From assembly GCF_024436035.1 (NCBI RefSeq), contig NZ_JANFNG010000017.1, positions 62,001 to 126,000 of the forward strand: a DNA stretch of 64,000 nucleotides, read 5' to 3'. Under the pieces are notes generated by a model, which was given only the letters and a program-made list of their open reading frames with translations, made no database searches and had not been told where the DNA came from. Shown in pieces: positions 4,213 to 62,206 of this stretch; the stretch's first letter is position 1, and every line of letters begins with the position of its first letter. The DNA is from Streptomyces humicola. Its GTDB lineage: Bacteria; Actinomycetota; Actinomycetes; Streptomycetales; Streptomycetaceae. Made by a program: the position numbers and the translations under genes.

Positions 4213-6189
4213 ATGAGCAAGCCCGCCCTCACCGAACTCCTCCACGCCGCTGTCACCGCTGTCGGCGGTGTCGAACGGCCCGGCCAGGTCTCGATGGCCG
4301 AGGCGGTCGCGACCGCCATCGACGACACCTCCCACCTGCTCGTTCAGGCGGGCACAGGCACCGGAAAATCGCTCGGCTACCTCGTCCCGGCCCTGGCGCA
4401 CGGCGAGCGCGTGGTCGTCGCCACCGCGACCCTCGCCCTGCAGCGGCAGCTCATCGAACGGGACCTGCCGCGCACGGTCGAGGCGCTCAGGCCCCTGCTG
4501 CGCCGCGAGCCGCAGTACGCGACGCTCAAGGGCCGCTCCAACTATCTGTGCCTTCACCGGCTGCACGAAGGGGTGCCGGGTGACGAAGAGGACGGCCTCT
4601 TCGACCCGATGGAGCAAATGGGTGGGCCGACGAGCAAGCTCGGCAAGGATCTGCTGCGGCTGCGCGACTGGGCGGACGAGGCGGAGACCGGCGACCGCGA
4701 CGCGCTCAGCCCCGGCGTCTCCGACCGTGCCTGGGCGCAGGTCTCGGTCAGCTCCCGCGAGTGCCTGGGCGCGAGCAAGTGCCCGTACGGCGCGGAGTGC
4801 TTCGCCGAGGCCGCCCGCGAGCGCGCCAAACTCGCCGACGTCGTCGTGACCAATCACGCGCTGCTGGCGATCGACGCCATCGAGGGCGCGCCCGTGCTCC
4901 CCAGCCACGAGGTGCTGATCGTCGACGAGGCCCACGAGCTGGTCTCGCGGGTCACCGGCGTCGCCACCGGGGAGCTGACGCCGGGCGCGGTGAACCGGGC
5001 CGTGAAGCGCTCGGCCAGACTCGTCAACGAGAAGGCTGCCGATGCGCTGCTCAGCGCCTCGGAGGGCTTCGAGCGGCTGATGGAGCTCGCGCTGCCCGGC
5101 CGGCTTGAGACGGTTCCGGAGGATCTGGCGTATGTGCTCGCCGCGCTGCGCGACGCCTGCCGCCAGGTGATCACCTCCCTGGGCGAGGTGCGGGACAAGT
5201 CGGTGACGGACGAGGACGCCGTACGCAAGCAGGCCCTCGCCTCGATCGAGAATGTGCACGCGGTGGCCGAGCGGCTGCTGCAGACCAATGAGTACGACGT
5301 GATCTGGTGCGAGCGCCATGACCGCTTCGGCGCCTCGCTGCGCGTCGCGCCGCTCTCGGTCTCCGGGCTGCTGCGGGAGAAGTTGTTCGCCGAGCGGTCG
5401 GTGGTACTGACCTCGGCGACGCTCAGGCTGGGCGGTGACTTCAACGGGGTGGCGGCCTCGCTCGGGCTGGCCCCGCAGGACGCCGAGCCGGCCGAGGGGG
5501 AGGAGCTGCCCGCGTGGCGGGGCATCGACGTCGGCTCGCCGTTCGACTACCCCAAGCAGGGCATCCTCTACGTCGCCAGGCACCTGCGCCAGCCCGGCCG
5601 TGAGGGCAGCCGCGACGACATGCTGGACGAGCTCGCGGAGCTGGTCGAGGCGGCGGGCGGGCGCACTCTGGGCCTGTTCTCCTCGATGCGCGCCGCCCAG
5701 GCAGCGGCGGAGGCGATGCGCGGCAGGCTCGACATGCCGGTCCTCCTGCAGGGAGAGGAGACGCTCGGCGAGCTGATCCGAGCCTTCGCCGAATCGGCGC
5801 GAACCTGCCTGTTCGGCACCTTGTCTCTCTGGCAGGGCGTGGACGTCCCGGGGTCAAACTGCCAGCTGGTGGTGATGGACCGGATTCCGTTCCCGCGGCC
5901 GGACGATCCCCTGATGAGCGCCCGCCAGAAGGCCGTCGAGGAGCACGGTGGCAACGGCTTCATGGCGGTCGCGGCGACGCATGCGGCGCTGCTGATGGCA
6001 CAGGGGGCGGGACGGCTCATCCGTTCGACGGACGACCGCGGGGTGGTCGCCGTCCTCGACCCCCGGCTGGCGACGGCACGGTACGGCAGCTTCCTGCGGG
6101 CCTCGATGCCGCCGTTCTGGTACACGGTCGACCGCAATCAGGTGCGCAAGTCGCTCGCCGCCATCGCAGCGGCAGCCGACGCCCGTTAA
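4213..6189 (+). CDS. dinG: DinG/XPD-type ATP-dependent DNA helicase
   Basis: 658-residue superfamily-2 helicase of the iron-sulphur XPD/DinG group, expected to unwind 5'-to-3' and to act on repair intermediates such as R-loops. Visible: Walker A AGTGTGKS (residues 46-53), four cysteines placed as for a 4Fe-4S cluster (Cys113, Cys184, Cys190, Cys196), DEAH box at 238-241, VLTSATL motif and a C-terminal LWQGVDVPG / QGAGRLIRS block (motifs V and VI). There is no N-terminal exonuclease domain, unlike Gram-positive long DinG proteins. TAGGGT at 4198-4203 lies 9 nt before the ATG and no Shine-Dalgarno is evident, so transcription may start at or near the start codon. It converges on lexA, but no LexA box lies upstream. 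The helicase family is certain; the exact cellular name less so. Confidence 0.9.
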   Translation: MSKPALTELLHAAVTAVGGVERPGQVSMAEAVATAIDDTSHLLVQAGTGTGKSLGYLVPALAHGERVVVATATLALQRQLIERDLPRTVEALRPLLRREPQYATLKGRSNYLCLHRLHEGVPGDEEDGLFDPMEQMGGPTSKLGKDLLRLRDWADEAETGDRDALSPGVSDRAWAQVSVSSRECLGASKCPYGAECFAEAARERAKLADVVVTNHALLAIDAIEGAPVLPSHEVLIVDEAHELVSRVTGVATGELTPGAVNRAVKRSARLVNEKAADALLSASEGFERLMELALPGRLETVPEDLAYVLAALRDACRQVITSLGEVRDKSVTDEDAVRKQALASIENVHAVAERLLQTNEYDVIWCERHDRFGASLRVAPLSVSGLLREKLFAERSVVLTSATLRLGGDFNGVAASLGLAPQDAEPAEGEELPAWRGIDVGSPFDYPKQGILYVARHLRQPGREGSRDDMLDELAELVEAAGGRTLGLFSSMRAAQAAAEAMRGRLDMPVLLQGEETLGELIRAFAESARTCLFGTLSLWQGVDVPGSNCQLVVMDRIPFPRPDDPLMSARQKAVEEHGGNGFMAVAATHAALLMAQGAGRLIRSTDDRGVVAVLDPRLATARYGSFLRASMPPFWYTVDRNQVRKSLAAIAAAADAR

Positions 6190-6198
6190 CGTCGGCTC

Positions 6199-6263
6199 AC
6201 GCAGACGTCTGCGTCATCCGCAGACGTCAGGACCCCGGAACCGGCGCAGGGGCTCCGGGGTCC
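6199..6263. terminator. Double hairpin between convergent dinG and lexA
   Basis: A perfect 16-bp palindrome (6199-6214) is followed by a 10-bp perfect stem (6230-6239 with 6254-6263, 14-nt loop). The gene ends converge here, so it can terminate both strands. No U-tract is present, as is usual in Streptomyces. Confidence 0.7.
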
Positions 6264-6278
6264 GCCTGGCAGGGGCGC

Positions 6279-7076
6279 TCAGACCCTTCGCAGTACTGCT
6301 ACGACCTTGCCGAGGATCGTCGCCTCGTCGCCGGGGATGGGCTGGTACGCGGAGTTGTGCGGGAGCAGCCACACATGGCCGTTCTCCCGCTTGAAGCGCT
6401 TGACCGTCGCTTCGCCGTCGAGCATCGCGGCGACGATGTCGCCGTTCTCCGCGACGGGCTGACGGCGCACGGTCACCCAGTCTCCGTCGCAGATGGCGGC
6501 CTCGATCATCGAGTCGCCGACCACCTTGAGCACGAACAGCTCGCCGTCGCCGACCAGTTGACGCGGGAGCGGGAAGACGTCCTCGACGGACTCCTCCGCG
6601 AGGATCGGCCCGCCCGCGGCGATCCGGCCCACCAGCGGCACATACGACGCGGACGGCTTGCCCGTGGTGTCGGTGGGCTGCGTGTGGGGGGTGTCCGAGG
6701 CGCGCACCTCATAGGCGCGCGGGCGGTGCGGGTCGCGACGCAGGAAGCCCTTGCGCTCCAGCGCCATCAGCTGGTGCGCGACGGAGGAGGTGGACGACAG
6801 CCCGACCGCCTGTCCGATCTCCCGCATGGACGGCGGGTATCCCCGCCGCTGGACCGAATCCCGGATGACTTCGATGACGCGACGCTGGCGGTCGGTGAGG
6901 CCTGAGCTGTCCGCGCGAATTCCCGGCGGCCGGCCGGGCAGCGATCGTGCGGGCTTCGTCGTCTCGTCGTTCATCGCGTCCATGGGCATGGCACTGGGCT
7001 GCAGCCGTTCCTGATTCCGGCGGTCCTGGGAGCGGTCATGTGCGGTGATGGTCGCGCTGTCTGCGGTGGTGGTCAC
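6279..7076 (-). CDS. lexA: LexA SOS repressor
   Basis: Self-cleaving repressor of the DNA-damage regulon. The N-terminal winged helix ([32 protein letters not shown] and following) starts near residue 55. The cleavage site Ala-Gly lies in GRIAAGGPI, the catalytic Ser in VGDSMIEAA and the catalytic Lys in EATVKRF. I chose the GTG at 7076 (265 residues) because GAGAGGGG lies just upstream and the [12 protein letters not shown]-terminus matches what I recall of Streptomyces LexA; the frame stays open for another 89 codons without better support, and a later ATG at MNDETT is possible. The first ~50 residues are a low-complexity extension. A LexA operator lies 64 nt upstream, giving autoregulation. 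Confidence 0.95.
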
Positions 7077-7139
7077 GGCGGCCCCTCTCGAGATGTTCTC
7101 CCTAGCGAGACAACGGTAGTTGGTTTCGAAAGGTTGCGC

Positions 7140-7153
7140 CAAACACACGTTCG
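7140..7153 (-). promoter_or_regulatory. LexA operator (SOS box) of lexA
   Basis: Read on the minus strand the site is CGAACGTGTGTTTG, matching the actinobacterial SOS box CGAAC-N4-GTTYG with both half sites and the 4-nt spacer. It lies 64 nt upstream of the lexA start codon, the expected place for autoregulation. Confidence 0.88.
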
Positions 7154-7369
7154 AGTGAACTTTCGCGAATCCGGTGACATGATCAAGATATTGGGTGTAT
7201 TGGCTGGCACTCCACCGTTGCCGAGTGGTGACCCACGGTGACGCCCGGGGGTCCGCACACACCGTACCGCCACCTCGCGTAGGCTCGCAGCCGCACTCAG
7301 GGATCGCCCGGAGGGTGTTCGAGGCGAACGGCCGACACGACACGCAGTTCGCGCGCCTCGCACCCAGGC

Positions 7370-7416
7370 CCCAGATCTAGTGGTTTCATTGGAAGTAGCC
7401 ACCCAGAAGTTGTGGT
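7370..7416. promoter_or_regulatory. Tandem NrdR-box-like pair
   Basis: CCCAGATCTAGTGGT (7370-7384) and CCCAGAAGTTGTGGT (7402-7416) match at 12 of 15 positions and are spaced 32 bp apart, about three helical turns. The first is a near-palindrome related to the NrdR consensus (acaCwAtATaTwGtgt). Paired boxes about 31-32 bp apart are characteristic of NrdR, which is encoded 130 bp downstream with its usual target. Confidence 0.65.
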
Positions 7417-7547
7417 CCCCGGGGCTCCGTTGCTCCTGGCATCGCCTATGCTTGTGGCTGCTTCGTGAGGCCTGTGAGGCGCATGAGGCGACGTTTCCAT
7501 GCCGCGCCGCAATTGTGCGCGTGCACAGAGGGTGAGGAGGGAAAGAC

Positions 7548-8072
7548 ATGCACTGCCCCTTCTGCAGGCACCCCGACAGCCGCGTCGTGGACAGCCGTAC
7601 CACCGACGACGGCACCTCGATCCGCCGACGTCGCCAGTGTCCCGACTGCGGGCGCCGTTTCACGACGGTGGAGACGGCGTCGCTGATGGTGATCAAGCGC
7701 AGCGGAGTGACCGAACCCTTCAGCCGTGACAAGGTCATCGCCGGGGTGCGGAAGGCCTGTCAGGGCCGCCCGGTCTCCGAGGACGCACTCGCCCAACTCG
7801 GGCAGCGCGTCGAGGAGGCGGTACGGGCCACCGGCAGCGCCGAGCTGTCCACCCACGACGTGGGGCTGGCGATACTCGGCCCGCTGCAGGATCTCGACCT
7901 TGTCGCCTATCTCCGCTTCGCCTCGGTCTACCGGGCCTTCGACTCGCTCGAGGACTTCGAGACAGCCATCACGGAGCTCCGCGGGGCCGCCCCCGCTGCC
8001 GAAGGCGCCGGAGTCCCCCGCGCCCCGGGCCCCCAAGGGCGGCAGACCGCCGACACCCGCAGCGCAGGGTGA
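7548..8072 (+). CDS. nrdR: NrdR ribonucleotide reductase repressor
   Basis: 174-residue transcriptional repressor that senses the ATP/dATP balance and shuts down ribonucleotide reductase operons. The N-terminal zinc ribbon uses CPFC (residues 3-6) and CPDC (about 31-34), followed by RRFTTVE. The middle is an ATP-cone ([24 protein letters not shown] onward, about residues 46-136). The C-terminal ~25 residues are a Gly/Ala/Pro tail beyond the usual ~150. ATG is preceded by GGTGAGGAGG. It is cotranscribed with nrdJ, and NrdR-like boxes upstream imply autoregulation. Confidence 0.96.
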
Positions 8073-8217
8073 CCGGCGGGGCGCGGCGGCAGGAACCGCG
8101 CCCGACGACAGAACGACATGGACTTGCCGAGGCCAGGTACGCCGAGGCGGCAGACAACACCGTGCGGCGGGAAGAACCGCGGCACTTCAGGGCGTTTTGC
8201 CCGTATAGGGAGGCGGC

Positions 8218-13360: not shown

Positions 13361-13366
13361 ACTTTA
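13361..13366 (-). promoter_or_regulatory. -10 hexamer of leaderless TetR gene
   Basis: TAAAGT on the minus strand, 7 nt before the ATG at 13353; transcription would start at the initiation codon. Confidence 0.55.
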
Positions 13367-13371
13367 CAAGA

Positions 13372-13411
13372 CACGGTGCCTCGGATACCTTTAACGAGTC
13401 ACGGTGGTTCG
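13372..13411. promoter_or_regulatory. Direct repeat between TetR and SDR genes (candidate operator)
   Basis: CACGGTGCCTCG (13372-13383) and CACGGTGGTTCG (13400-13411) match at 10 of 12 positions. They flank TACCTT (13386-13391), a possible -10 for the SDR gene, and lie just upstream of the TetR -10. A bound repressor could block both promoters. Confidence 0.5.
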
Positions 13412-13436
13412 TAATGGTGAGCGGACGGAGCGGACG

Positions 13437-14222
13437 ATGAGCGCACAGCTGGGCGAACGGCCCGAACGGGCCGAACGGGCCGAACGTGCCGAGCATGTGG
13501 TGGTCGTCGGCGGTACCTCGGGTATCGGTTTGGCAGCGGCGGAGCGGCAGCTGCGCCGGGGCAGGGAGGTCGTCGTCACGGGGCGGGATCCGGGCAGGCT
13601 GACCGCGGCCCTGAAGGAGTTGGAGCAGGCAGGGGCCGGTGCGACGGGTGAGGTCGTGGACGCGCGGGACGATGCGGCGATGCGCGGCCTGTTCGGCCGG
13701 CTCGGCGCGGTGGATCACGTGGTGGTGACGGTGACGGGCGCGAGCGCCGCCGGGCCGTTCCGGTCCATCGCAGCGTCCGATCTGCGGGCGGCCGCGGAGG
13801 GCAAGCTCGTTGCGCAGTCGGTAGCGGCGCAGGCCGCCCTTGAGGTGTTGCGCCCCGGCGGTTCCCTCACCTTCGTCTCGGCGGGGTCTGCGGGAGCGGC
13901 GATACCGGGCACGGCGGGGCTCGCGGCCGTCAATGCCGCGGTGGAGGCGATGATCCCCGTGCTCGCCGTGGAGCTTGCGCCCACCCGCGTCAACGCCGTC
14001 TCGCCCGGCATCATCGACACGCCCTGGTGGGACTGGCTGGATGCCGACGCGCGGCAGCAGACGTTCGACGCCTACGCCGCCAGCGCCCCGGCCGGCCGGG
14101 TCGGTCGCGCCGGCGATGTCGCCGATGCCATCGGCTACCTGATCGAGGCCACGTTCGTCACCGGTGTCGTCCTGCCGGTGGACGGCGGAGCGCGGCACCG
14201 TCCGGCGTCGGCCTCTGTGTAG
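13437..14222 (+). CDS. Short-chain dehydrogenase/reductase
   Basis: 261-residue classical-type SDR. The N-terminus is a repetitive AERAERAERAE stretch (residues ~8-18), then VVVVGGTSGIGLAAAERQL, which includes TGxxxGIG-like cofactor binding with Gly in place of the first Thr. A catalytic Ser is plausible in LTFVSAGSAGA, but the usual YxxxK is replaced: after that Ser comes GTAGLAAVNAAVEAMIPVLAVELAPTRVNAVSPG, where no Tyr is visible. This is seen in several Streptomyces SDRs and makes activity uncertain. ATG at 13437 follows GGAGCGG. Likely regulated by the divergent TetR protein. Confidence 0.85.
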   Translation: MSAQLGERPERAERAERAEHVVVVGGTSGIGLAAAERQLRRGREVVVTGRDPGRLTAALKELEQAGAGATGEVVDARDDAAMRGLFGRLGAVDHVVVTVTGASAAGPFRSIAASDLRAAAEGKLVAQSVAAQAALEVLRPGGSLTFVSAGSAGAAIPGTAGLAAVNAAVEAMIPVLAVELAPTRVNAVSPGIIDTPWWDWLDADARQQTFDAYAASAPAGRVGRAGDVADAIGYLIEATFVTGVVLPVDGGARHRPASASV

Positions 14223-14314
14223 GGGCGGGCAGGGCCGGCGCGAAAGAGCAGGCGGTGAGTTTGCGCACAGGATGATTGACCCGGATGGGGGGTGATGTCA
14301 GAGTTTCCGTCGCC

Positions 14315-15271
14315 ATGACCGTTGATCCCGACCTTCCCGAGCGCTACGACCGGGCTCTCGCCAGCCTGCGAGGCCTGTCCGTGGGCGATGCGCTCGGCTC
14401 CCAGTTCTCCGTTCCCGCCAATTACGCGGCCCTCAAGAGCGGCGGACTGCCGACCGCTCCCTGGCGGTGGACCGACGACACCGAGATGGCCACTTCGGTC
14501 GTGGCGGGTCTCGTGGTGCACGGCCGGATCGACCAGGATGCCCTTGCCATGTCCTTCGCCGAGCACCATGACGTGAGCCGCGGCTACGGTGCCAACGTCG
14601 ACCGGATGCTCAGGGCGATCCGGCACGAGGGCCGGGACTGGCGGGAGCTGGCGGCGGGCTTCTTCAACGGACAGGGATCGTGGGGCAATGGCGCTGCCAT
14701 GCGGATCGCCCCGCTCGGTGCCTGGTATGCGGGTGACCCGGAGCAGGCAACGCATCAGGCCGAGATCTCTGCGTACACCACCCACCAGCACCGTGAGGCG
14801 GTGGTCGGCACCATGGCCGTGGCGGCTGCCGCCGCCCTCGTCGCCGACCCACAAGGGCCCAAGGCCCCGGCGGAGCTGCTGACCGCCGTGATGGAACTCG
14901 TGCCGCGCAGTGCTGTCCAGGCCGGGCTGCGCCGAGCGAGCGACATGCTCGACTACGCGGATGTGGGCACGGTGGCCGCGGTGCTCGGCTGTGGCCGCCG
15001 TACCAGTGCGCACGACACCGTGCCGTTCGCGCTGTGGGCCGTGGCGCGGCATCTCGACGACTACGAGCGCGCGTTCTGGTCGACGGCACGTGCGGGGGGC
15101 GACGTCGACACCACGTGCGCCATCGTCGGGGGCGTTCTGGCGGCGCGGCCTTCGGGCGCTCCCCCCGCCGAGTGGGAACGCCGCACCGAACCGCTGCCGG
15201 GCTGGCTTCCGCGGAGTCCTGCCGGAGAGGGCAGGGCCGGTGCAGCCCGGAGGGACGCAGGCGTACGCTGA
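14315..15271 (+). CDS. ADP-ribosylglycohydrolase family protein (DraG-like)
   Basis: 318-residue protein of the DraG/ARH fold, which hydrolyses ADP-ribose from proteins or ADP-ribosylated small molecules using a di-magnesium centre. Metal ligands are visible in RWTDDTEMA (about residues 49-57) and [18 protein letters not shown] (about 259-276); the N-terminal [18 protein letters not shown] is also family-typical. ATG at 14315 was chosen over in-frame starts further upstream because the family begins close to [12 protein letters not shown]. It ends 7 nt before rnhB. The target is unknown. Confidence 0.88.
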
Positions 15272-15278
15272 CAGCGCC

Positions 15279-15974
15279 ATGCCCTACGAACCTCCTACTC
15301 ACCAGGTCGAGCGGTCGATCCGAGCCACTCTCGGAGCGAAGATCGTTGCAGGCGTTGACGAAGTCGGCCGCGGAGCATGGGCGGGGCCGGTCACTGTGTG
15401 CGCCGCTGTCACCGGTCTGCGCCGACCGCCCGAGGGCCTCACCGATTCGAAGCTGCTGCCCGTCCCTCGCCGTACGGCACTCGCCGGGCAGCTCCTCACC
15501 TGGGTGAGCGATCATGCCTTGGGCCACGCCTCGCCGGAGGAGATCGACGAACTCGGCATGACGGCCGCCTTGCGCCTTGCGGCGGAGCGCGCGCTTGCGG
15601 GGCTGTCGGTTCGTCCCGATGCCGTGATCCTCGACGGCAAGCACGACTATCTCGGCGCTCCTTGGAGTGTGCGCACTGTGATCAAGGGCGATCAGTCGTG
15701 CGTCTCGGTCGCTGCCGCCTCCGTGATTGCCAAGGTGCACCGCGATGCGTTCATGGCCGAACTGGGGGCTCATCACACCGCGTTCGGATTCGACTCCAAC
15801 GCGGGGTACCCTTCGCCGGTGCATCGCGCCGCTCTGGAGGAGTGGGGTCCCACCCCGTACCACCGGTTGTCCTGGGCCTACCTCGATGCGCTGCCGCGGT
15901 GGCGCCACCTGAGGAAGATCCGCGCATCCGCCGACGTGGCGGAGGAGATCGAGCAGTTGGGGTTCGATTTTTGA
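15279..15974 (+). CDS. rnhB: Ribonuclease HII
   Basis: 231-residue RNase HII, which cuts RNA in RNA-DNA hybrids and single ribonucleotides in DNA. The active-site block [13 protein letters not shown] supplies Asp27 and Glu28; further acidic residues include Asp119 in [14 protein letters not shown] and [14 protein letters not shown] are conserved family segments. ATG at 15279, 7 nt after the ADP-ribosylglycohydrolase stop. TACGCT at 15264-15269 lies 9 nt upstream, so a short or leaderless transcript in addition to read-through is possible. Placement near NrdJ, LexA and RecQ-like genes suits genome maintenance. Confidence 0.96.
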
Positions 15975-16036: not shown

Positions 16037-16654
16037 ATGCCTCTCATCCCCGAGGAGCCACAGATTCACGAGAGTGTCCCGGGCCCGCGCGCCACAGCGG
16101 GGGGAACCCGAACTCCGCAGGCCCCCCGTCCCGTTCCGGCTCCTGGTCCCCGACCCGCCCCGCGCCCGGCCCCGCCGCGCGCGGCACGTACTCATCCCTC
16201 GCCCGGTCGCCCTGGGTCGGCCCGGCCCGGTGCACCTGCCGCCTCGGGCGTGCCGGCGCAGGCACGTCCCGCGGATGCGGACGTCCAGATCCAGCTCGTC
16301 CCGGCCACGGACGCCACCGCCGTCACGGCTGCCGACGAGGCGGTCGATGTGCTGCTGGACTCCGGACGGGCCCCGTCCGACATCCTGGTACTGACGACCG
16401 GCGACATCCATCCGTGGGCGCAGCACGAGCTGTCGTTCGGGGAGGAGTCCTACTGGCGCCAGCAGGACGAGGGCAGCGACGTCTTCTATGCGTCGGCCAC
16501 CTCCGGACGCGTCGCCAAGCGCCCCGCCGTGGTGCTCGCGGTCAACGGCGGCACCGATGAGGAGTCCGCTCGCGCACTGCCCGCAGCCATGGGACGTGCC
16601 GGGGCGCTGCTGGTCGTGTGCGGCGATCCCGAGCGGTTGCGCACCCTCCTCTGA
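16037..16654 (+). CDS. Uncharacterised protein with Pro/Arg/Ala-rich N-terminus
   Basis: 205 residues. The first ~75 are low-complexity Pro-Ala-Arg, likely disordered. The C-terminal ~130 residues are compact: DADVQIQLVPATDATAVTAADEAVDVLLDSGRAPSDILVLTTGD, ESYWRQQDEGSDVFYASATSGRVAKRPAVVLAVNGG and GALLVVCGDPERLRTLL. The last pieces recall the C-terminal helicase-like segment of UvrD/Rep proteins (LVVCGDPERL), and the order of strands resembles the last Rossmann-like domain of superfamily-1 helicases without the ATPase core. I do not recognise a named family. It lies between rnhB and the RecQ-like gene. Confidence 0.7.
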   Translation: MPLIPEEPQIHESVPGPRATAGGTRTPQAPRPVPAPGPRPAPRPAPPRAARTHPSPGRPGSARPGAPAASGVPAQARPADADVQIQLVPATDATAVTAADEAVDVLLDSGRAPSDILVLTTGDIHPWAQHELSFGEESYWRQQDEGSDVFYASATSGRVAKRPAVVLAVNGGTDEESARALPAAMGRAGALLVVCGDPERLRTLL

Positions 16655-16711
16655 GCCCGAGCTCCGAGTGGGGGCGGCGCAGCGGTGCGGTCGCGGGTCG
16701 CCCGCCGTCCC

Positions 16712-16751
16712 GTCAGCGCGCCGTGTGGCGTCTCAGCGCGCCGTGTGGCGT
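16712..16751. repeat. 20-bp tandem duplication at a gene 3' end
   Basis: Two copies (16712-16731 and 16732-16751) differ at one base. The inner copy contains the last codons and stop of the minus-strand gene that ends at 16733; the outer copy repeats stop-proximal sequence just beyond it. Confidence 0.85.
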
Positions 16752-17326
16752 CGCACCGCCTCCGGCGCTCCGTCATCGGAGTGCACCAACGCACCCTCGC
16801 GGTCGCGTCGTGACCAGGATCCGGTGTGCGGTGTGCGACCTTCGCGGCCATCGCCGAGGACCCGCCAACCGCCTGGCGTGAGCGTGATGTACGCACCGCA
16901 GCGCAGTCCGTGCAGTGAGCACGCGTCCCGGAGCCCCCACATCCAGGCACCGTCGGCCTCGGTCCACTCCGGAGCGCCGTCGCGGCACATGAGCAGCACT
17001 GCCGTCCGCACCGGCGTCCGCAGCCGCAGATCGTGGGGGAGCACGCGGCGCAGATGGGCGAGGATCGCGTTGCGGTGCTCCCATCCGTCGGAGGTGCCTG
17101 GCCGCTGCGCGAACGACGCGCTGGCAGCGGGCCTTCCGTCCGGGGCGAAGACAGCGACCACGGCGGTGGCCGGCGACGGGAGGTGGCGGGCGAAGAGATC
17201 GTTGACGACTTCGCGCGGGTTGTGCAGCAGGGGTATCGAGGACGCCGCCCACTCGTCCGGCCCGAGGATTCTCGTGAGACGGGAGGCGGCCGCGCTGCTC
17301 GTCTGCGGGGCGAAACCGAAAGTCAC
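16733..17326 (-). CDS. Uncharacterised conserved protein
   Basis: 197 residues starting VTFGFAPQTSSAAASRLTRILGPDEW at a GTG with GGAGG five bases upstream on the minus strand; that ribosome site decides the start. It contains ASSIPLLHNPREVVNDLFARHL, TAVVAVFAPDGRPAASASFAQ, RTAVLLMCRDGAPEWTEADGAWMWGLRDACSLHGLRCGAYITLTPGGW. A repeated V/A-rich strand pattern and paired Cys residues (MCRDG, DACSLHGLRC) are visible, but I do not recognise a family. It is in the same direction as, and downstream of, the RecQ-like gene. Confidence 0.7.
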   Translation of the reverse strand: MTFGFAPQTSSAAASRLTRILGPDEWAASSIPLLHNPREVVNDLFARHLPSPATAVVAVFAPDGRPAASASFAQRPGTSDGWEHRNAILAHLRRVLPHDLRLRTPVRTAVLLMCRDGAPEWTEADGAWMWGLRDACSLHGLRCGAYITLTPGGWRVLGDGREGRTPHTGSWSRRDREGALVHSDDGAPEAVRRHTAR

Positions 17327-17532
17327 GGTCCTCCCTTCGCGCAAACGCTCGATGGCGCGGCACGGGTGCACGCCTGTGACGAGGCTCGATGAGCCGGCCG
17401 GGGATCGGGTCCAATTCTTCCTCCCGTACGGACATGCGGCAACGAGCAATTGGCTCCACACGGCCGGTATGGGCCGGTCCGCCGGTTAGATCCTTCTGAT
17501 TCCGTTCCCGTGGCGCATACGCGGATCCGTGG

Positions 17533-19713
17533 TCAGCTTTCGACGGCCAGCACCATGGGCAGCACCCCCTCCGCTCCGGAACACAGCAGCAGGCGAGCGG
17601 CGACGGCAAGAGTCCAGCCGGTGCTCACGACATCGTCCACCAGCAGCACCGGACCCCCTGCCGTGGTGAGACTATGGGCCAATTCGGCCGGGACCGTGAA
17701 CACGTCGTGCAATGCGCGAAGCCTTTGGGCGCTGTTGCTGCGCGCCGCCCGCTCGGGTCCCGCCCCGTCCGCGTAGCCGACCCGGCCCAGCACCGGTATG
17801 CGTCCGACCTCCGCGATGTGCTCCCCGAGCGATTCGATCAGCCGGGGCCTGGTGTGTGAGGCGATCGTGACGACGCCGGCCGGCCGGGGCGGAGCCCCGG
17901 GATCCGCGCCGGCCCATCCGCCGGGTCCCTTGGCCCAGTCGGCGAGCACCTGCACTACGGCGTCCGCCACCTCGCGCGGCACATCGCCGTCGGGTGCACC
18001 ATCGGCGAACAGCGGCCGCAGCCGGTTGCCCCAGCCGATGTCGGAGAGTCTGCCCAGCGCCCGCCCGGTGAGCGCCTGTTCGCCGGGCGGGATACGGCCC
18101 TTGAGATCGACACCCACCGCGGGCATGCCGGTCGGCCACATCCGGCGAGGTTCCACCTCGATGCCCGCCCTGCCGAGCGCCGAACGGGCCGCGTCGAGTG
18201 CGTCGCCCGAGACGTCGGCGGGGAACCGGGACCCGGAGCAGTTGTCGCACCGGCCGCAGGGCGCGGCCTGTTCGTCGTCCAGCTGGAGTCGGAGGTACTC
18301 CATCCTGCACACCGTCGACGTGGCGTATTCGCGCATGGACTGCTGCTCCGCCTCGCGCTGGCGCGCGACCCACGCATAGCGTTCCGCGTCGTAGTTCCAT
18401 GGACGGCCGGTTGCTGTCCAGCCGCCTCGCACGCGGCGCACGGCACCGTCCACGTCGAGCACCTTGAGCATGGTCTCCAGGCGCGAGCGCCGCAGCTCCA
18501 CGCGGGCTTCGAGCGCGGGAAGGGACATCGGCCGTTCGGACTCGGCCAACACGCTCAACGTACGGCGCACTTGATCTTCCGCAGGGAACGCCAGGGAGGC
18601 GAAGTAGCGCCAGATCGCCTCGTCCTCGCGGCCGGGCAGAAGCAGCACCTCCGCATGTTCCACACCGCGTCCCGCCCGGCCAACTTGCTGGTAGTACGCG
18701 ATCGGCGACGACGGGGAGCCGACGTGCACCACGAACCCGAGGTCGGGCTTGTCGAACCCCATCCCCAGTGCCGAGGTGGCCACCAGCGCCTTCACCCGGT
18801 TCGCCAGCAGATCGGCCTCGGCGGCCCGCCGGTCGGCGTCCTCGGTCTTCCCCGAGTACGACGCGACGGAGTAACCGCGGCGGCGCAGGAAGGCGGCCAC
18901 TTCCTCCGCGGCGGCGACGGTGAGGGTGTAGATGATGCCCGATCCCGGAAGGGCGCCGAGGTGTTCGGCGAGCCAGGCCAGCCGGTGCGCGGCGTCGGGA
19001 AGCCGCAGGACGCTCAGTGCCAGGCTTTCGCGGTCCAGAGGGCCGCGCAGCACGAGCGCTCCTTCTACGTCGGGGCGCTCGCCATCGGGCGCCACTGTTC
19101 CGAGTTGTTCGGCGATGTCGGCGGTCACCCGTGCGTTCGCCGTGGCCGTCGTGGCCAGCACCGGGGTGCCGGGCGGGAGTTCGGCGAGCATGGTGCGCAA
19201 CCGCCGGTAGTCGGGCCGGAAATCGTGTCCCCAGTCGGAGATGCAGTGCGCCTCGTCGACGACCAGCAAGCCCGTCGTCGCGGCGAGCTTGGGGAGCACC
19301 CCGTCACGGAAATCCGGATTGTTCAGCCGCTCAGGGCTGACCAGCAGCACATCGACGTCACCCGCCGCCACCTCGGCCTGCACTTCGTCCCACTCCTCCG
19401 TGTTGGCCGAGTTGATGGTGTGGGCGCGGATTCCGGCGCGCCGGGCGGCCTCGATCTGGTTGCGCATCAACGCCAGCAGAGGTGAGACGATCACCGTCGG
19501 ACCACTGCCCTGCTCGCGCAGCAGCGCCGTGGCCACGAAGTACACCGCGGACTTGCCCCAGCCGGTGCGCTGCACCACCAGTGCGCGACGTCGCCGGGAG
19601 ACGAGCGCCTCGATCGCCCGCCACTGGTCCTCGCGCAGCCGCGCCGTACCGGTGTCGTCGCCGACGAGACGGCCGAGGACGGTGTCGGCAGCGGAGCGCA
19701 GTGGTTCGTTCAT
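17533..19713 (-). CDS. RecQ-family DNA helicase with C-terminal phosphoribosyltransferase-like domain
   Basis: 726 residues. The N-terminal ~500 form a RecQ helicase: TGWGKS Walker A (50-55), DEAHCISDWGHDFRPDY (154 onward), GSGIIYTLTV, YYQQVGRAGR (motif VI) and a zinc cluster of four Cys around residues 470-493 (STVCRM ... PCGRCDNC). It lacks the usual HRDC domain. Instead the C-terminus ends in VLLVDDVVSTGWTL (689-702), the PRPP-binding signature of type I phosphoribosyltransferases, preceded by an RSNSAQRLRALHDVF segment. ATG at 19713 agrees with family N-termini. Similar fusions occur in actinobacteria to my knowledge, but a function for the tail is not established. ComFA/ComFC (helicase plus phosphoribosyltransferase in DNA uptake) is a suggestive parallel. 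Confidence 0.92.
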   Translation of the reverse strand: MNEPLRSAADTVLGRLVGDDTGTARLREDQWRAIEALVSRRRRALVVQRTGWGKSAVYFVATALLREQGSGPTVIVSPLLALMRNQIEAARRAGIRAHTINSANTEEWDEVQAEVAAGDVDVLLVSPERLNNPDFRDGVLPKLAATTGLLVVDEAHCISDWGHDFRPDYRRLRTMLAELPPGTPVLATTATANARVTADIAEQLGTVAPDGERPDVEGALVLRGPLDRESLALSVLRLPDAAHRLAWLAEHLGALPGSGIIYTLTVAAAEEVAAFLRRRGYSVASYSGKTEDADRRAAEADLLANRVKALVATSALGMGFDKPDLGFVVHVGSPSSPIAYYQQVGRAGRGVEHAEVLLLPGREDEAIWRYFASLAFPAEDQVRRTLSVLAESERPMSLPALEARVELRRSRLETMLKVLDVDGAVRRVRGGWTATGRPWNYDAERYAWVARQREAEQQSMREYATSTVCRMEYLRLQLDDEQAAPCGRCDNCSGSRFPADVSGDALDAARSALGRAGIEVEPRRMWPTGMPAVGVDLKGRIPPGEQALTGRALGRLSDIGWGNRLRPLFADGAPDGDVPREVADAVVQVLADWAKGPGGWAGADPGAPPRPAGVVTIASHTRPRLIESLGEHIAEVGRIPVLGRVGYADGAGPERAARSNSAQRLRALHDVFTVPAELAHSLTTAGGPVLLVDDVVSTGWTLAVAARLLLCSGAEGVLPMVLAVES

Positions 19714-19880
19714 GCCCCCATGCAACCTGATGCCAGTGACATCGGGCGAACCGACCCCGAACGCCTGTGGACAACGTGTCCTTCGATCGAGTGACCGGGC
19801 GACCTTCAGTTCATATGACGATATTCGGCAGTTATCCACAGGGGGTGACGCCGCCCGATCGGGCGCGGGATCTTGTCGCC

Positions 19881-21215
19881 ATGACTCAGCACACCGATTC
19901 CTCACGTTCCTCGCGTCCCTCACGCCCGTCGGAGGAGACGCAGGTCACCCTCCACGGCCCTGCCGACCTGGCCGAGGCGCTCCCGTATCTGATGGGCTTC
20001 CACCCCGACGACAGCATCGTCATGATCGCTCTGCACGGGGCGCGCGGCCGCTTCGGCGGCCGCCTGCGCCTCGGCATCCCCGCCGACGCCGCCGAGTGGC
20101 CCGACGTGGCCGCGCAGCTCGCGGACTGCCTCATCCAGGGCGCCGGCCGCCGCGGCCGGCCCGACGCCATCGCGGTGTATCTGTGTCAGGACCCGCTCGG
20201 CAACGAGACGCCCCTACAGACAATGGAGCGCCTCCGGCCGCTCGCCCAGCATCTGCGCACCGCGTGCGGCTCACTGGACGTCCCCGTGGTCGAGGCACTG
20301 TGCATCAGTGCGGGGCGCTGGTGGTCCTACTGCTGTCCGGACACCGACTGCTGCCCGCCCGACGGCGGGCAGCTCACCCGCGAGGGCACCTCCGTGATGG
20401 CGGCCGCAGCCGCGTACGCCGGAATTCAAGTCCGCGGCTCCCTCCGCGAGATGGAGGCACGCCTGGCCCCCCTCGGGGCGGAGCGGGCAGCGGGCCAGGA
20501 ACGGGCACTCGACGCGGCATGCGCCGAACTCCTGCCGCGCCTGCTCGCCGCACCCGAGTCCGACGCTCTGCGCGAGCAGACCATCGCCCTGGCCTCTTCC
20601 GCAATGGAGCGGTTCCGCGACGCCCCCGTGTGCGCCGGACGCCCGGCGGACGATGCCGACGACGAGTTGATCACCGATGACGAGGCAGCTGCTCTCATCC
20701 TCGGCCTTCAGGACCGCGGAGCACGGGACCGGGTGGCGGAGTGGATGGAGGAACCCGACGCCGCTGCCGCACTCCGGCTGTGGCGAGCCCTTGCCCGGCG
20801 CTGCGTCGGTGCCTACACCGACCACGCCGCGCCCCCGCTCACCCTCGCAGGCTGGGTCTCCTGGTCACTCGGCGACGAGCCTGCCGCGCGGGTCGCCTTT
20901 GGCCGGGCACTCGACGCAGACCCCGATTACACCTTCGCCAAACTCCTTCACCAGGCGTGCAACCACGGACTCGACCCGGAGCCGCTGCGCCGCAGCTTGC
21001 GGGAGGAACGCTGCAGGCGAGCCAGGCGATCACCGCGCCCGCTGCCCGGCGCTGACGCCCGCCCCACGCCCGCTACGGGTCCCGCCGGACGTCCGGTCGC
21101 GGACGGTCGTCCGGAGGGCCGGCCCTCCGGACGGCGACGGCACCGGCGGAGCGGGCGCACCGGGCGGCCCGGCACTGCGGGCGGCGCCCGTGGACCGGAG
21201 GAGGGAGCGCCATGA
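19881..21215 (+). CDS. DUF4192 protein
   Basis: 444 residues. EALPYLMGFHPDDSIVMIALHG (about residues 34-55) is the hallmark of DUF4192 (actinobacterial, function unknown). The body has alternating hydrophobic strands and helices, ending in a TPR-like ALRLWRALARRCVG...LGDEPAARVAFGRALDADPDYTFAKLLHQACNHG segment (about 290-360). The last ~70 residues are Arg/Pro/Gly-rich and may be disordered, or may result from a frameshift; the low-complexity sequence does not let me decide. ATG at 19881 was chosen by fit to the family start. Divergent from the RecQ-like gene with 167 nt between. Confidence 0.85.
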   Translation: MTQHTDSSRSSRPSRPSEETQVTLHGPADLAEALPYLMGFHPDDSIVMIALHGARGRFGGRLRLGIPADAAEWPDVAAQLADCLIQGAGRRGRPDAIAVYLCQDPLGNETPLQTMERLRPLAQHLRTACGSLDVPVVEALCISAGRWWSYCCPDTDCCPPDGGQLTREGTSVMAAAAAYAGIQVRGSLREMEARLAPLGAERAAGQERALDAACAELLPRLLAAPESDALREQTIALASSAMERFRDAPVCAGRPADDADDELITDDEAAALILGLQDRGARDRVAEWMEEPDAAAALRLWRALARRCVGAYTDHAAPPLTLAGWVSWSLGDEPAARVAFGRALDADPDYTFAKLLHQACNHGLDPEPLRRSLREERCRRARRSPRPLPGADARPTPATGPAGRPVADGRPEGRPSGRRRHRRSGRTGRPGTAGGARGPEEGAP

Positions 21216-61811: not shown

Positions 61812-62206
61812 CCTGCGCCGACCGGCCCGCGCCACGCGTTCGCTTTGCGCGAAATATGATGATCTGTCCTTCGACGTTCCCAGCTGTGACCGATTGCACA
61901 TAGGATTTCGGCCACCGGCACGGAGAGTGATCAACATACCTGCGCAAAAAGCGGAAAAATCCAGGTTTCCGCAGGGCATGATCACGGGAAGTACACGGAA
62001 CGGCGTGAGTGAAGTGCGACATTCGGACCGTGTTCGGGCCTGATTGACAGCCGACCCGATCACCTCTTCGGGGGTGCGGTTGGGTGTCGATTGAGTAACA
62101 GGCCTTGATGTAAGGCAAAATCTCCGCCTCGGGTCGGGCACAAGTCCGGCCTCTCACGCGTTACGTGCGCTGGAGATACCGCAGACACCCGGAGGGGGAG
62201 AGCGAC
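61812..62206. other. Leader region upstream of DUF4193 gene
   Basis: 395 nt, AT-richer in 61840-61990. Its main content is a nested inverted-repeat structure (61927-61985). GGAGGGGGAGAG at 62191-62202 is the ribosome site of the downstream gene. No reliable coding frame. Confidence 0.55.
61927..61985 (+). ncRNA. Candidate structured RNA or operator, nested inverted repeats
   Basis: Outer arms GTGATCA (61927-61933) and TGATCAC (61979-61985) enclose CCTGCG (61939-61944) with CGCAGG (61970-61975), which competes with GCGGAAA (61951-61957) paired to TTTCCGC (61966-61972). The two inner pairings are mutually exclusive, as in a switch. I could not match it to a known riboswitch class. It lies about 220 nt before the DUF4193 gene. 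Confidence 0.4.

Follow-up and report, generated by a model that had tools for sequence, protein, structure and literature searches.

An RqlH-type helicase with a predicted phosphoribosyltransferase tail and no detected antitoxin in Streptomyces humicola

Introduction

How is a RecQ-type helicase that ends in a phosphoribosyltransferase (PRTase) domain kept in check in a bacterium in which no antitoxin for it is found? The question is raised by the rqlH locus of Streptomyces humicola, which was analysed in a stretch of 64,000 nucleotides (hereafter the window; positions 62,001 to 126,000 of contig NZ_JANFNG010000017.1). The window is part of a 7.07-Mb genome, and its nearest named kin at the rqlH locus are Streptomyces. 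RqlH of Escherichia coli, called PsyrT in PADLOC, is a toxin held by an antitoxin, yet 32 of the 35 genomes surveyed from the class of S. humicola carry rqlH without a detected partner. With moderate confidence, we read the orphan gene as encoding an ATP-driven, RecQ-like genome-maintenance helicase, in which a ComF-like PRTase takes the place of the HRDC domain and the PRTase half is checked by the helicase half.

Results and Discussion

RqlH is a RecQ-type helicase of a known family

The gene and its parts, all on the minus strand, are as follows.

17533-19713, minus strand: rqlH (orphan PsyrT), 726 amino acids, RecQ-type helicase with a C-terminal PRTase domain (PADLOC, Pfam)
18634-19641, minus strand: Superfamily 2 helicase core, residues ~25-360 (Pfam and alignment), with Walker A GWGKS at 51-55, DEAH at 153-156 and QQVGRAGR at 342-349
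18238-18378, minus strand: zinc-binding segment, residues ~446-492, with Cys 469, 486, 489 and 492
17536-18237, minus strand: C-terminal tail, residues 493-726, a linker and a predicted ComF-like PRTase-fold domain (AlphaFold model, VIA-align)
17608-17649, minus strand: putative phosphoribosyl pyrophosphate (PRPP) loop VLLVDDVVSTGWTL, residues 689-702

The PsyrT profile of PADLOC covers residues 20-724 of the protein (E = 1.3e-211), nearly its whole length. Pfam recognised the helicase domains DEAD (E = 4e-23) and Helicase_C (E = 1.2e-16), while RecQ_Zn_bind (E = 5.1e-5, 24.4 bits) lay slightly under its cut-off of 25 and Pribosyltran (E = 3e-4, 20.6 bits) under its cut-off of 26.3. The general RecQ family model TIGR00614 was passed (224.2 bits, cut-off 219.8) and the canonical RecQ equivalog TIGR01389 was not reached (274.9 bits, cut-off 640.2). 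HRDC is absent from the nine Pfam rows obtained at E ≤ 1, which agrees with the first-pass annotation of the sequence, where a RecQ helicase with a PRTase tail in place of HRDC had been proposed; to our knowledge, the RqlH family as a whole has no HRDC domain. Searches against PHROGs returned helicase-core matches alone for rqlH and none for the neighbouring genes.

E. coli RqlH has the same full-length architecture, with a RecQ-type core, the zinc site and the C-terminal PRTase, and aligns over residues 24-726 with 41% identity (E = 7e-170), the helicase core being 58% and the PRTase region 32% identical. Conservation was assessed in 115 distinct RqlH proteins, counted after removal of 15 duplicate loci and of one member of an identical pair; the alignment leaves out one truncated protein (L043) and the window's own copy (L085). 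GWGKS is kept in 115 of the 115 and DEAH in 114, and each of the four cysteines of the Cys4 zinc site is conserved in all of them. Judged by these profiles and motifs, the gene belongs to the known RqlH family, and the RecQ-PRTase fusion is not new: RqlH, its PRTase domain and its distribution in Streptomyces are published, so the central observation of the first-pass annotation is already in print. The closest known counterparts are the RqlH proteins of Mycobacterium smegmatis and E. coli F11. RqlH was reportedly named in M. smegmatis by Ordonez et al. in 2012 and is said to translocate and unwind in the 3′-5′ direction. SCO5815 is presumably the S. coelicolor ortholog. The C-terminal part of RqlH is also hit strongly by PADLOC models that bear the name DpdF (PDLC02866 and others; 3.1e-116, residues 471-726), and the label DpdF on RqlH-type proteins may for this reason be misleading.

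The tail is predicted to adopt a PRTase fold

The 234-residue tail was modelled with AlphaFold from an alignment (A1) of 52 of the 77 listed tails, which gave a predicted local distance difference test score (pLDDT) of 88.5 and a predicted template modelling score (pTM) of 0.84. In VIA-align, the closest fold was ComFC (7p0h; Z 12.9, root-mean-square deviation 3.5, 164 residues aligned), followed by ShosT (8zvd; Z 11.1) and by entries of PurF, APRT and HGXPRT (Z about 8.6-9.8). Because the predicted structure has a PRTase fold and the PsyrT profile extends to residue 724, the likeness of the modelled tail to PRTases is more than chance.

The parallel to ComFA/ComFC that had been drawn from the sequence alone is apt, since the tail models well and is closest to ComFC, and the pairing of a helicase with a PRTase is common to both. 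ComFA, however, is not joined to its PRTase in one polypeptide and does not belong to the RecQ helicases, whereas the window helicase is of the RecQ family by TIGR00614 and its neighbours are not com genes by Pfam. ComFC also has a zinc finger of its own (described among PMC5512222, PMC9122126 and PMC9005727). ShosT of ShosTA is described as a PRTase-fold toxin-antitoxin protein with a DprA-like antitoxin; the matched chain has 412 residues and was aligned to the RqlH tail only. We know of no helicase domain in ShosT.

The PRPP signature had been noted as intact, and the loop VLLVDDVVSTGWTL bears this out with one nuance: the window copy has Ser697, a position that is acidic (Asp or Glu) in 107 of the 115 proteins. 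Of the other loop residues, Asp693 is conserved in 115 of 115 proteins, Asp694 in 111, Gly699 in 102 (Arg in the other 13) and Trp700 in 115. Both Asp, the Gly and the Trp are present in 83 of 83 Streptomycetaceae proteins, and both Asp in 28 of the 32 from elsewhere. An acidic residue at position 697 was considered as a sign of a non-canonical loop and dropped, as the PRPP synthetase 4s2u aligns there with VDDMIDTGGTL. At the same place of the loop, Helicobacter pylori ComFC, the structure of which was solved with PRPP, has DDIITTGTTL (among PMC5512222, PMC9122126 and PMC9005727).

The median ratio of nonsynonymous to synonymous substitution rates (dN/dS), taken from 393 non-independent Streptomycetaceae pairs with an overall dS of 0.05-0.6, is 0.095 in the helicase core, 0.156 in the next segment, 0.169 in the linker and 0.22 in the PRTase. 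Purifying selection thus acts along the whole of RqlH and is weaker in the tail. A tblastn search of phage records with the tail gave no match at E ≤ 1e-3.

No PsyrA-type antitoxin is detected in the class

The distribution of rqlH was determined in 296 actinobacterial genomes, which include 35 of the class of S. humicola and, among these, 12 of its family; 41 near relatives were searched in addition. The gene is present in 70 of the 296 (32 of 35 within the class, 38 of 261 outside). Outside the class, 37 of the matches are at E ≤ 1e-120, and one (G215) is a partial match beside PsyrA. The count of 70 includes two genomes without a demonstrated tail (G094 and G286), in which the match ends near residue 470. 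Of the near relatives, 40 of 41 have rqlH; in G304 it is found as scattered pieces, and in G299 and G325 as two adjoining pieces each.

The PsyrA model also matches ordinary DprA and scored in 281 of the 296 genomes and in 11 of 14 controls. Clear PsyrA (E ≤ 4.5e-50, start within model positions 1-7, directly after rqlH) amounts to eight genes in seven of the 296 genomes and was found in none of the 35 genomes of the class. The best and only match in the S. humicola genome (2.2e-22) is at the level of ordinary DprA, and the gene directly downstream of rqlH encodes a predicted RadC-like protein (orf242) rather than PsyrA or RqlI. As judged from these searches, the window rqlH is an orphan, with no RqlI/PsyrA-type antitoxin detected in its genome. 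This is in line with a paper of 2015, according to which Streptomyces encode RqlH alone, a pattern shared by 99.6% of the Gram-positive strains that it covered (PMC4670107).

The arrangement is different in some other bacteria. In the E. coli genome examined, rqlH and dprA (RqlI) form a pair (L164:3956-7473) inside a type I restriction operon, with the genes of restriction subunits M and S before the pair and that of subunit R after it. A copy on an Acinetobacter plasmid lies inside a BREX cluster and precedes PsyrA (pair at L115:3450-6979), and on a Nostoc plasmid the gene next to rqlH is a downstream dprA with a PsyrA-level score.

Two apparent alleles of rqlH at one site

The genes around rqlH are as follows.

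15279-15974, plus strand: rnhB, ribonuclease HII, used as flanking marker (NCBIfam E = 2.2e-65)
16037-16654, plus strand: orf205, 205 amino acids, Pro-rich N-terminus and a putative detached C-terminal NERD/UvrD-like domain (hhalign)
16733-17461, minus strand: orf242, 242 codons, predicted RadC-like (JAB/MPN) fold (structure model)
19881-21215, plus strand: DUF4192 protein (Pfam E = 5.8e-85)

The loci compared are the best 80 of 586 confirmed relatives (73 from Streptomycetaceae, seven from elsewhere); some are incomplete because the contig stops within them. Among the 73 Streptomycetaceae loci, 20 (L052, L055, L057-L072, L074 and L076) have rqlH inverted relative to orf242. These are termed type B here; the window is of type A. 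In 17 of the 20 type B loci, the contig continues beyond rqlH to the DUF4192 gene; in L067 this gene lies on another contig, and the genomes of L052 and L074 yielded no such gene. The distance between rqlH and the DUF4192 gene does not exceed 607 nt in 48 of 49 type A loci (4444 nt in L011), and in type B it is 279-5706 nt in the 12 loci where it could be measured inside the locus and about 5.9, 5.9, 6.0, 34 and 55 kb in five others.

All 20 type B proteins form one clade of the RqlH tree with a support of 100 (a quick tree, with support from the Shimodaira-Hasegawa-like approximate likelihood ratio test only). When the orientation was mapped on a tree of the neighbours rnhB, orf205 and orf242 (68 rows, 18 of them inverted), 13 changes were counted, at least eight of which are forced by starred branches. 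Shuffled labels gave a mean of 16.0 changes, and 20 of 500 shuffles were as low as 13; the orientation is thus close to scattered on the neighbour tree, though not wholly. Hand-picked pairs from the tree show the same discrepancy. In six A/B sister pairs, the neighbours are 81-91% identical and the RqlH proteins 76-78%, and in three A/A or B/B sister pairs the values are 87-92% and 91-92%. For two distant pairs, one B/B and one A/A, the identity is 75% in the neighbours and 84-85% in RqlH. Because type B is a single RqlH clade and yet is scattered on the tree of its neighbours, it appears, as far as sequence comparison can tell, that two alleles of rqlH have repeatedly replaced each other at a single site. 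This was the least expected result of the analysis.

An ancient divergent duplication followed by differential loss was weighed against exchange. Exchange is favoured because fragments of a second RqlH are nearly absent: the type A loci among the 80 contain none, apart from weak helicase-core matches in L083 and L084, and type A fragments occur in one of the 20 type B loci. In this one, S. flaveus L062, an intact type B rqlH (6001-8136) is flanked on both sides, on the opposite strand, by type A fragments (5730-5867 and 13361-13737) that together cover residues 8-133 and 681-726, with about 5 kb of other genes between; L158 covers the same place. The arrangement looks as if a type A gene had been interrupted by type B rqlH together with some 5 kb of DNA. 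Exchange and duplication alike fit the fragments of second copies present in G304 and G331, as well as the partial second matches of G324 and G330. In L162 (G331:C521) and L163 (G304:C87, where both contig ends cut the locus), the fragments of the second rqlH lie near the first on the opposite strand.

The additional DNA of type B loci was sampled as 10 proteins from the longest predicted open reading frames (ORFs). The Pfam matches were phosphoesterase, ABC2 membrane, histidine kinase, YcaO, UreD, AMP-binding, peptidase M1 and RPE65; a protein of L069 has trypsin, NACHT and TPR domains, and one further protein had no Pfam match. PADLOC gave a single weak match among the 10 (L069, 3.1e-5). The idea that the inverted loci are defence islands is weakened by this sample, as most proteins with a Pfam match look metabolic or regulatory. 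We only tentatively propose that rqlH of the Streptomycetaceae consists of two competing alleles which recurrently replace each other at a fixed site, with type B often bringing or attracting inserted DNA. If so, an antitoxin-free RqlH under recurrent replacement would behave like an immunity or conflict gene and not like a plain housekeeping gene. The two alleles at the same site in closely related species offer natural test material.

Restraint of the PRTase half and competing explanations

Experimental data on the two halves come from other hosts (PMC4670107). In E. coli, wild-type RqlH is restrained by RqlI, and deletion of the PRTase or mutation of its loop abolishes growth inhibition and SOS induction by RqlH. 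Cultures with helicase-dead RqlH reached a normal density, yet viability was lower and both SOS induction and filamentation were increased; titres recovered when the loop was mutated as well. The authors inferred a further restraint on the PRTase domain, exerted by the helicase domain, and called the interactions complex. In M. smegmatis, the PRTase is dispensable for unwinding.

Following this precedent, the preferred reading is that RqlH would load onto single-stranded or damaged DNA and unwind it, while the PRTase domain may bind PRPP or nucleotides and perhaps, by analogy to ComFC, also single-stranded DNA. This binding would switch or carry out a step at DNA ends. In actinobacteria, the helicase half rather than an antitoxin would restrain the PRTase half. 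Because the class carries rqlH without a detected antitoxin, Streptomyces would be a clean setting in which to study the function and restraint of a RecQ-PRTase protein.

Several points weigh against this interpretation. The helicase-dead data of E. coli are mixed, and their authors warn of dominant-negative effects (PMC4670107). Foldseek returned mostly PRTases in its top rows for the tail, yet none at E ≤ 0.001 (best 1.8e-3). The evolutionary rate of the PRTase part is roughly double that of the helicase. PRPP chemistry may, on the alignment, not be universal in the family, since four of the 115 proteins lack the second Asp of the loop and 13 have Arg in place of the Gly. Finally, the apparent exchange of alleles is unlike a plain, vertically inherited housekeeping gene.

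The strongest competitor, which we regard as unlikely but keep mainly because of homology and allele exchange, is an effector against phages or foreign DNA: the helicase would detect invading or damaged DNA, and the PRTase would harm the cell or the detected DNA under a restraint other than PsyrA. The same action has been proposed for PsyrTA and ShosTA, the former homologous to RqlH through PsyrT, and relatives are located in BREX and type I restriction loci. The second-best fold of the tail, ShosT, comes from a system whose title names it as phage defence, and protection of E. coli from phages T7 and lambda is described for a DprA-PRTase pair (among PMC5512222, PMC9122126 and PMC9005727). The repeated exchange resembles that of immune genes, and nearby inserts look partly defence-like (the trypsin-NACHT-TPR protein of L069; a HerA-like protein and a methylase in the insert of the DUF4192 gene of G275). 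However, rqlH is chromosomal and widespread in the class, its dN/dS is low, PADLOC had no match for orf205, orf242 and the DUF4192 protein of the window, and the sampled proteins of type B loci gave the one weak match and the largely metabolic or regulatory content described above.

Less probable still is a relic tail that has lost catalysis and persists only for its fold or for a surface that binds DNA. The substitutions of Asp694 and Gly699 and the dispensability of the PRTase for unwinding in M. smegmatis would suit a relic; the two Asp, the Gly and the Trp of the loop are nevertheless kept in all 83 Streptomycetaceae proteins examined, the PRTase domain is under purifying selection (dN/dS 0.22), and mutation of the loop abolishes the phenotype in E. 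coli.

It is very improbable that rqlH, orf205, orf242 and the DUF4192 gene form a module cooperating in repair, as suggested by the first-pass annotation, given that none of the neighbours was found at 39 distinct rqlH loci outside the Streptomycetaceae (flanks of about 1.5 to 9 kb), that the strands alternate across the four genes and that rqlH is exchanged in allele and orientation while its neighbours stay. The 39 loci comprise the seven of the locus set, 20 from other families and 12 from the two families that are nearest within the order (L184 and L185, which repeat L080 and L081, were left out of an initial 14). The neighbours separate outside the family, an outcome that the first-pass annotation had itself named as counting against its proposal, and are not conserved across actinobacteria; they are syntenic in one family, where orf242 is present at 72, orf205 at 69, rnhB at 68 and the DUF4192 gene at 62 of the 73 loci. 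This synteny speaks for a module, as do the RadC-like fold of orf242 and its occurrence only beside rqlH (11 of 11 genomes, all of the family). Against it, orf242 occurs in 11 of the 296 genomes and rqlH in about 70, the twelfth family genome (G162) has rqlH beside orf205 and no orf242, and the DUF4192 gene is unlinked to rqlH elsewhere (2.8 Mb apart in G038).

Neighbouring genes

The order in the window is rnhB (+), orf205 (+), orf242 (−), rqlH (−) and the DUF4192 gene (+). The last two are divergent and 167 nt apart, and 71 nt separate the stop of rqlH from the start of orf242. The conserved part of orf242 relatives begins with a stretch resembling EGxxVxxGF (in 34 of 43 sequences), for which reason the true start is probably at 17326; the protein would then have 197 amino acids and the distance to rqlH would be 206 nt. 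An Rfam search and a scan for promoters and terminators gave nothing useful.

A structure of orf242 was predicted from 43 sequences (pLDDT 79.9). Its fold is closest to RadC in VIA-align (2qlc, Z 10.8 over 117 residues; next best 6.0), and the JAB/MPN-type fold is common to both, but the metal-binding HxHP motif is absent from the orf242 family (0 of 43). Searching the PDB by sequence gave nothing useful for orf242. The model suggests a RadC-like protein without HxHP; a partnership with RqlH is hypothetical. The fold provides a structural lead for an orphan gene family.

The helicase-like C-terminal segment that had been suspected in one of the unrecognised genes was recovered in orf205, for which an alignment of 33 of 68 listed sequences (A3) was used. 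Its C-terminal part matches that of L166, a NERD and UvrD_C_2 protein, with an hhalign probability of 99.0% and 34% identity over 134 residues, whereas orf205 itself has no NERD or ATPase family match in Pfam. This part also occurs inside ORFs of 532-639 amino acids in six other genomes of the class, one of which (L166) was inspected, and orf205 is present in 12 of 12 family genomes. On this comparison, orf205 is a detached domain of NERD/UvrD-like proteins. Sequence searches of the PDB returned chance matches only, and A3 retrieved orf205 alone from its own genome.

An ADP-ribosylglycohydrolase gene lies further out, directly before rnhB, and has a relative at 49 of the 80 rqlH loci.

14276-15271: ADP-ribosylglycohydrolase gene (Pfam E = 2.2e-50)

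The DUF4192 gene, correctly named in the first annotation, is found in 35 of the 296 genomes, exactly the 35 of the class, three of which have no rqlH. It may serve as an integration target. The gene is split by an insert of about 36 kb in G295:C9:78786-116082 and of about 12 kb in L171 (G275:C1:3756500-3772500). Two Phage_integrase ORFs lie in the latter insert, together with genes for a HerA-like protein and an N6/N4 methylase.

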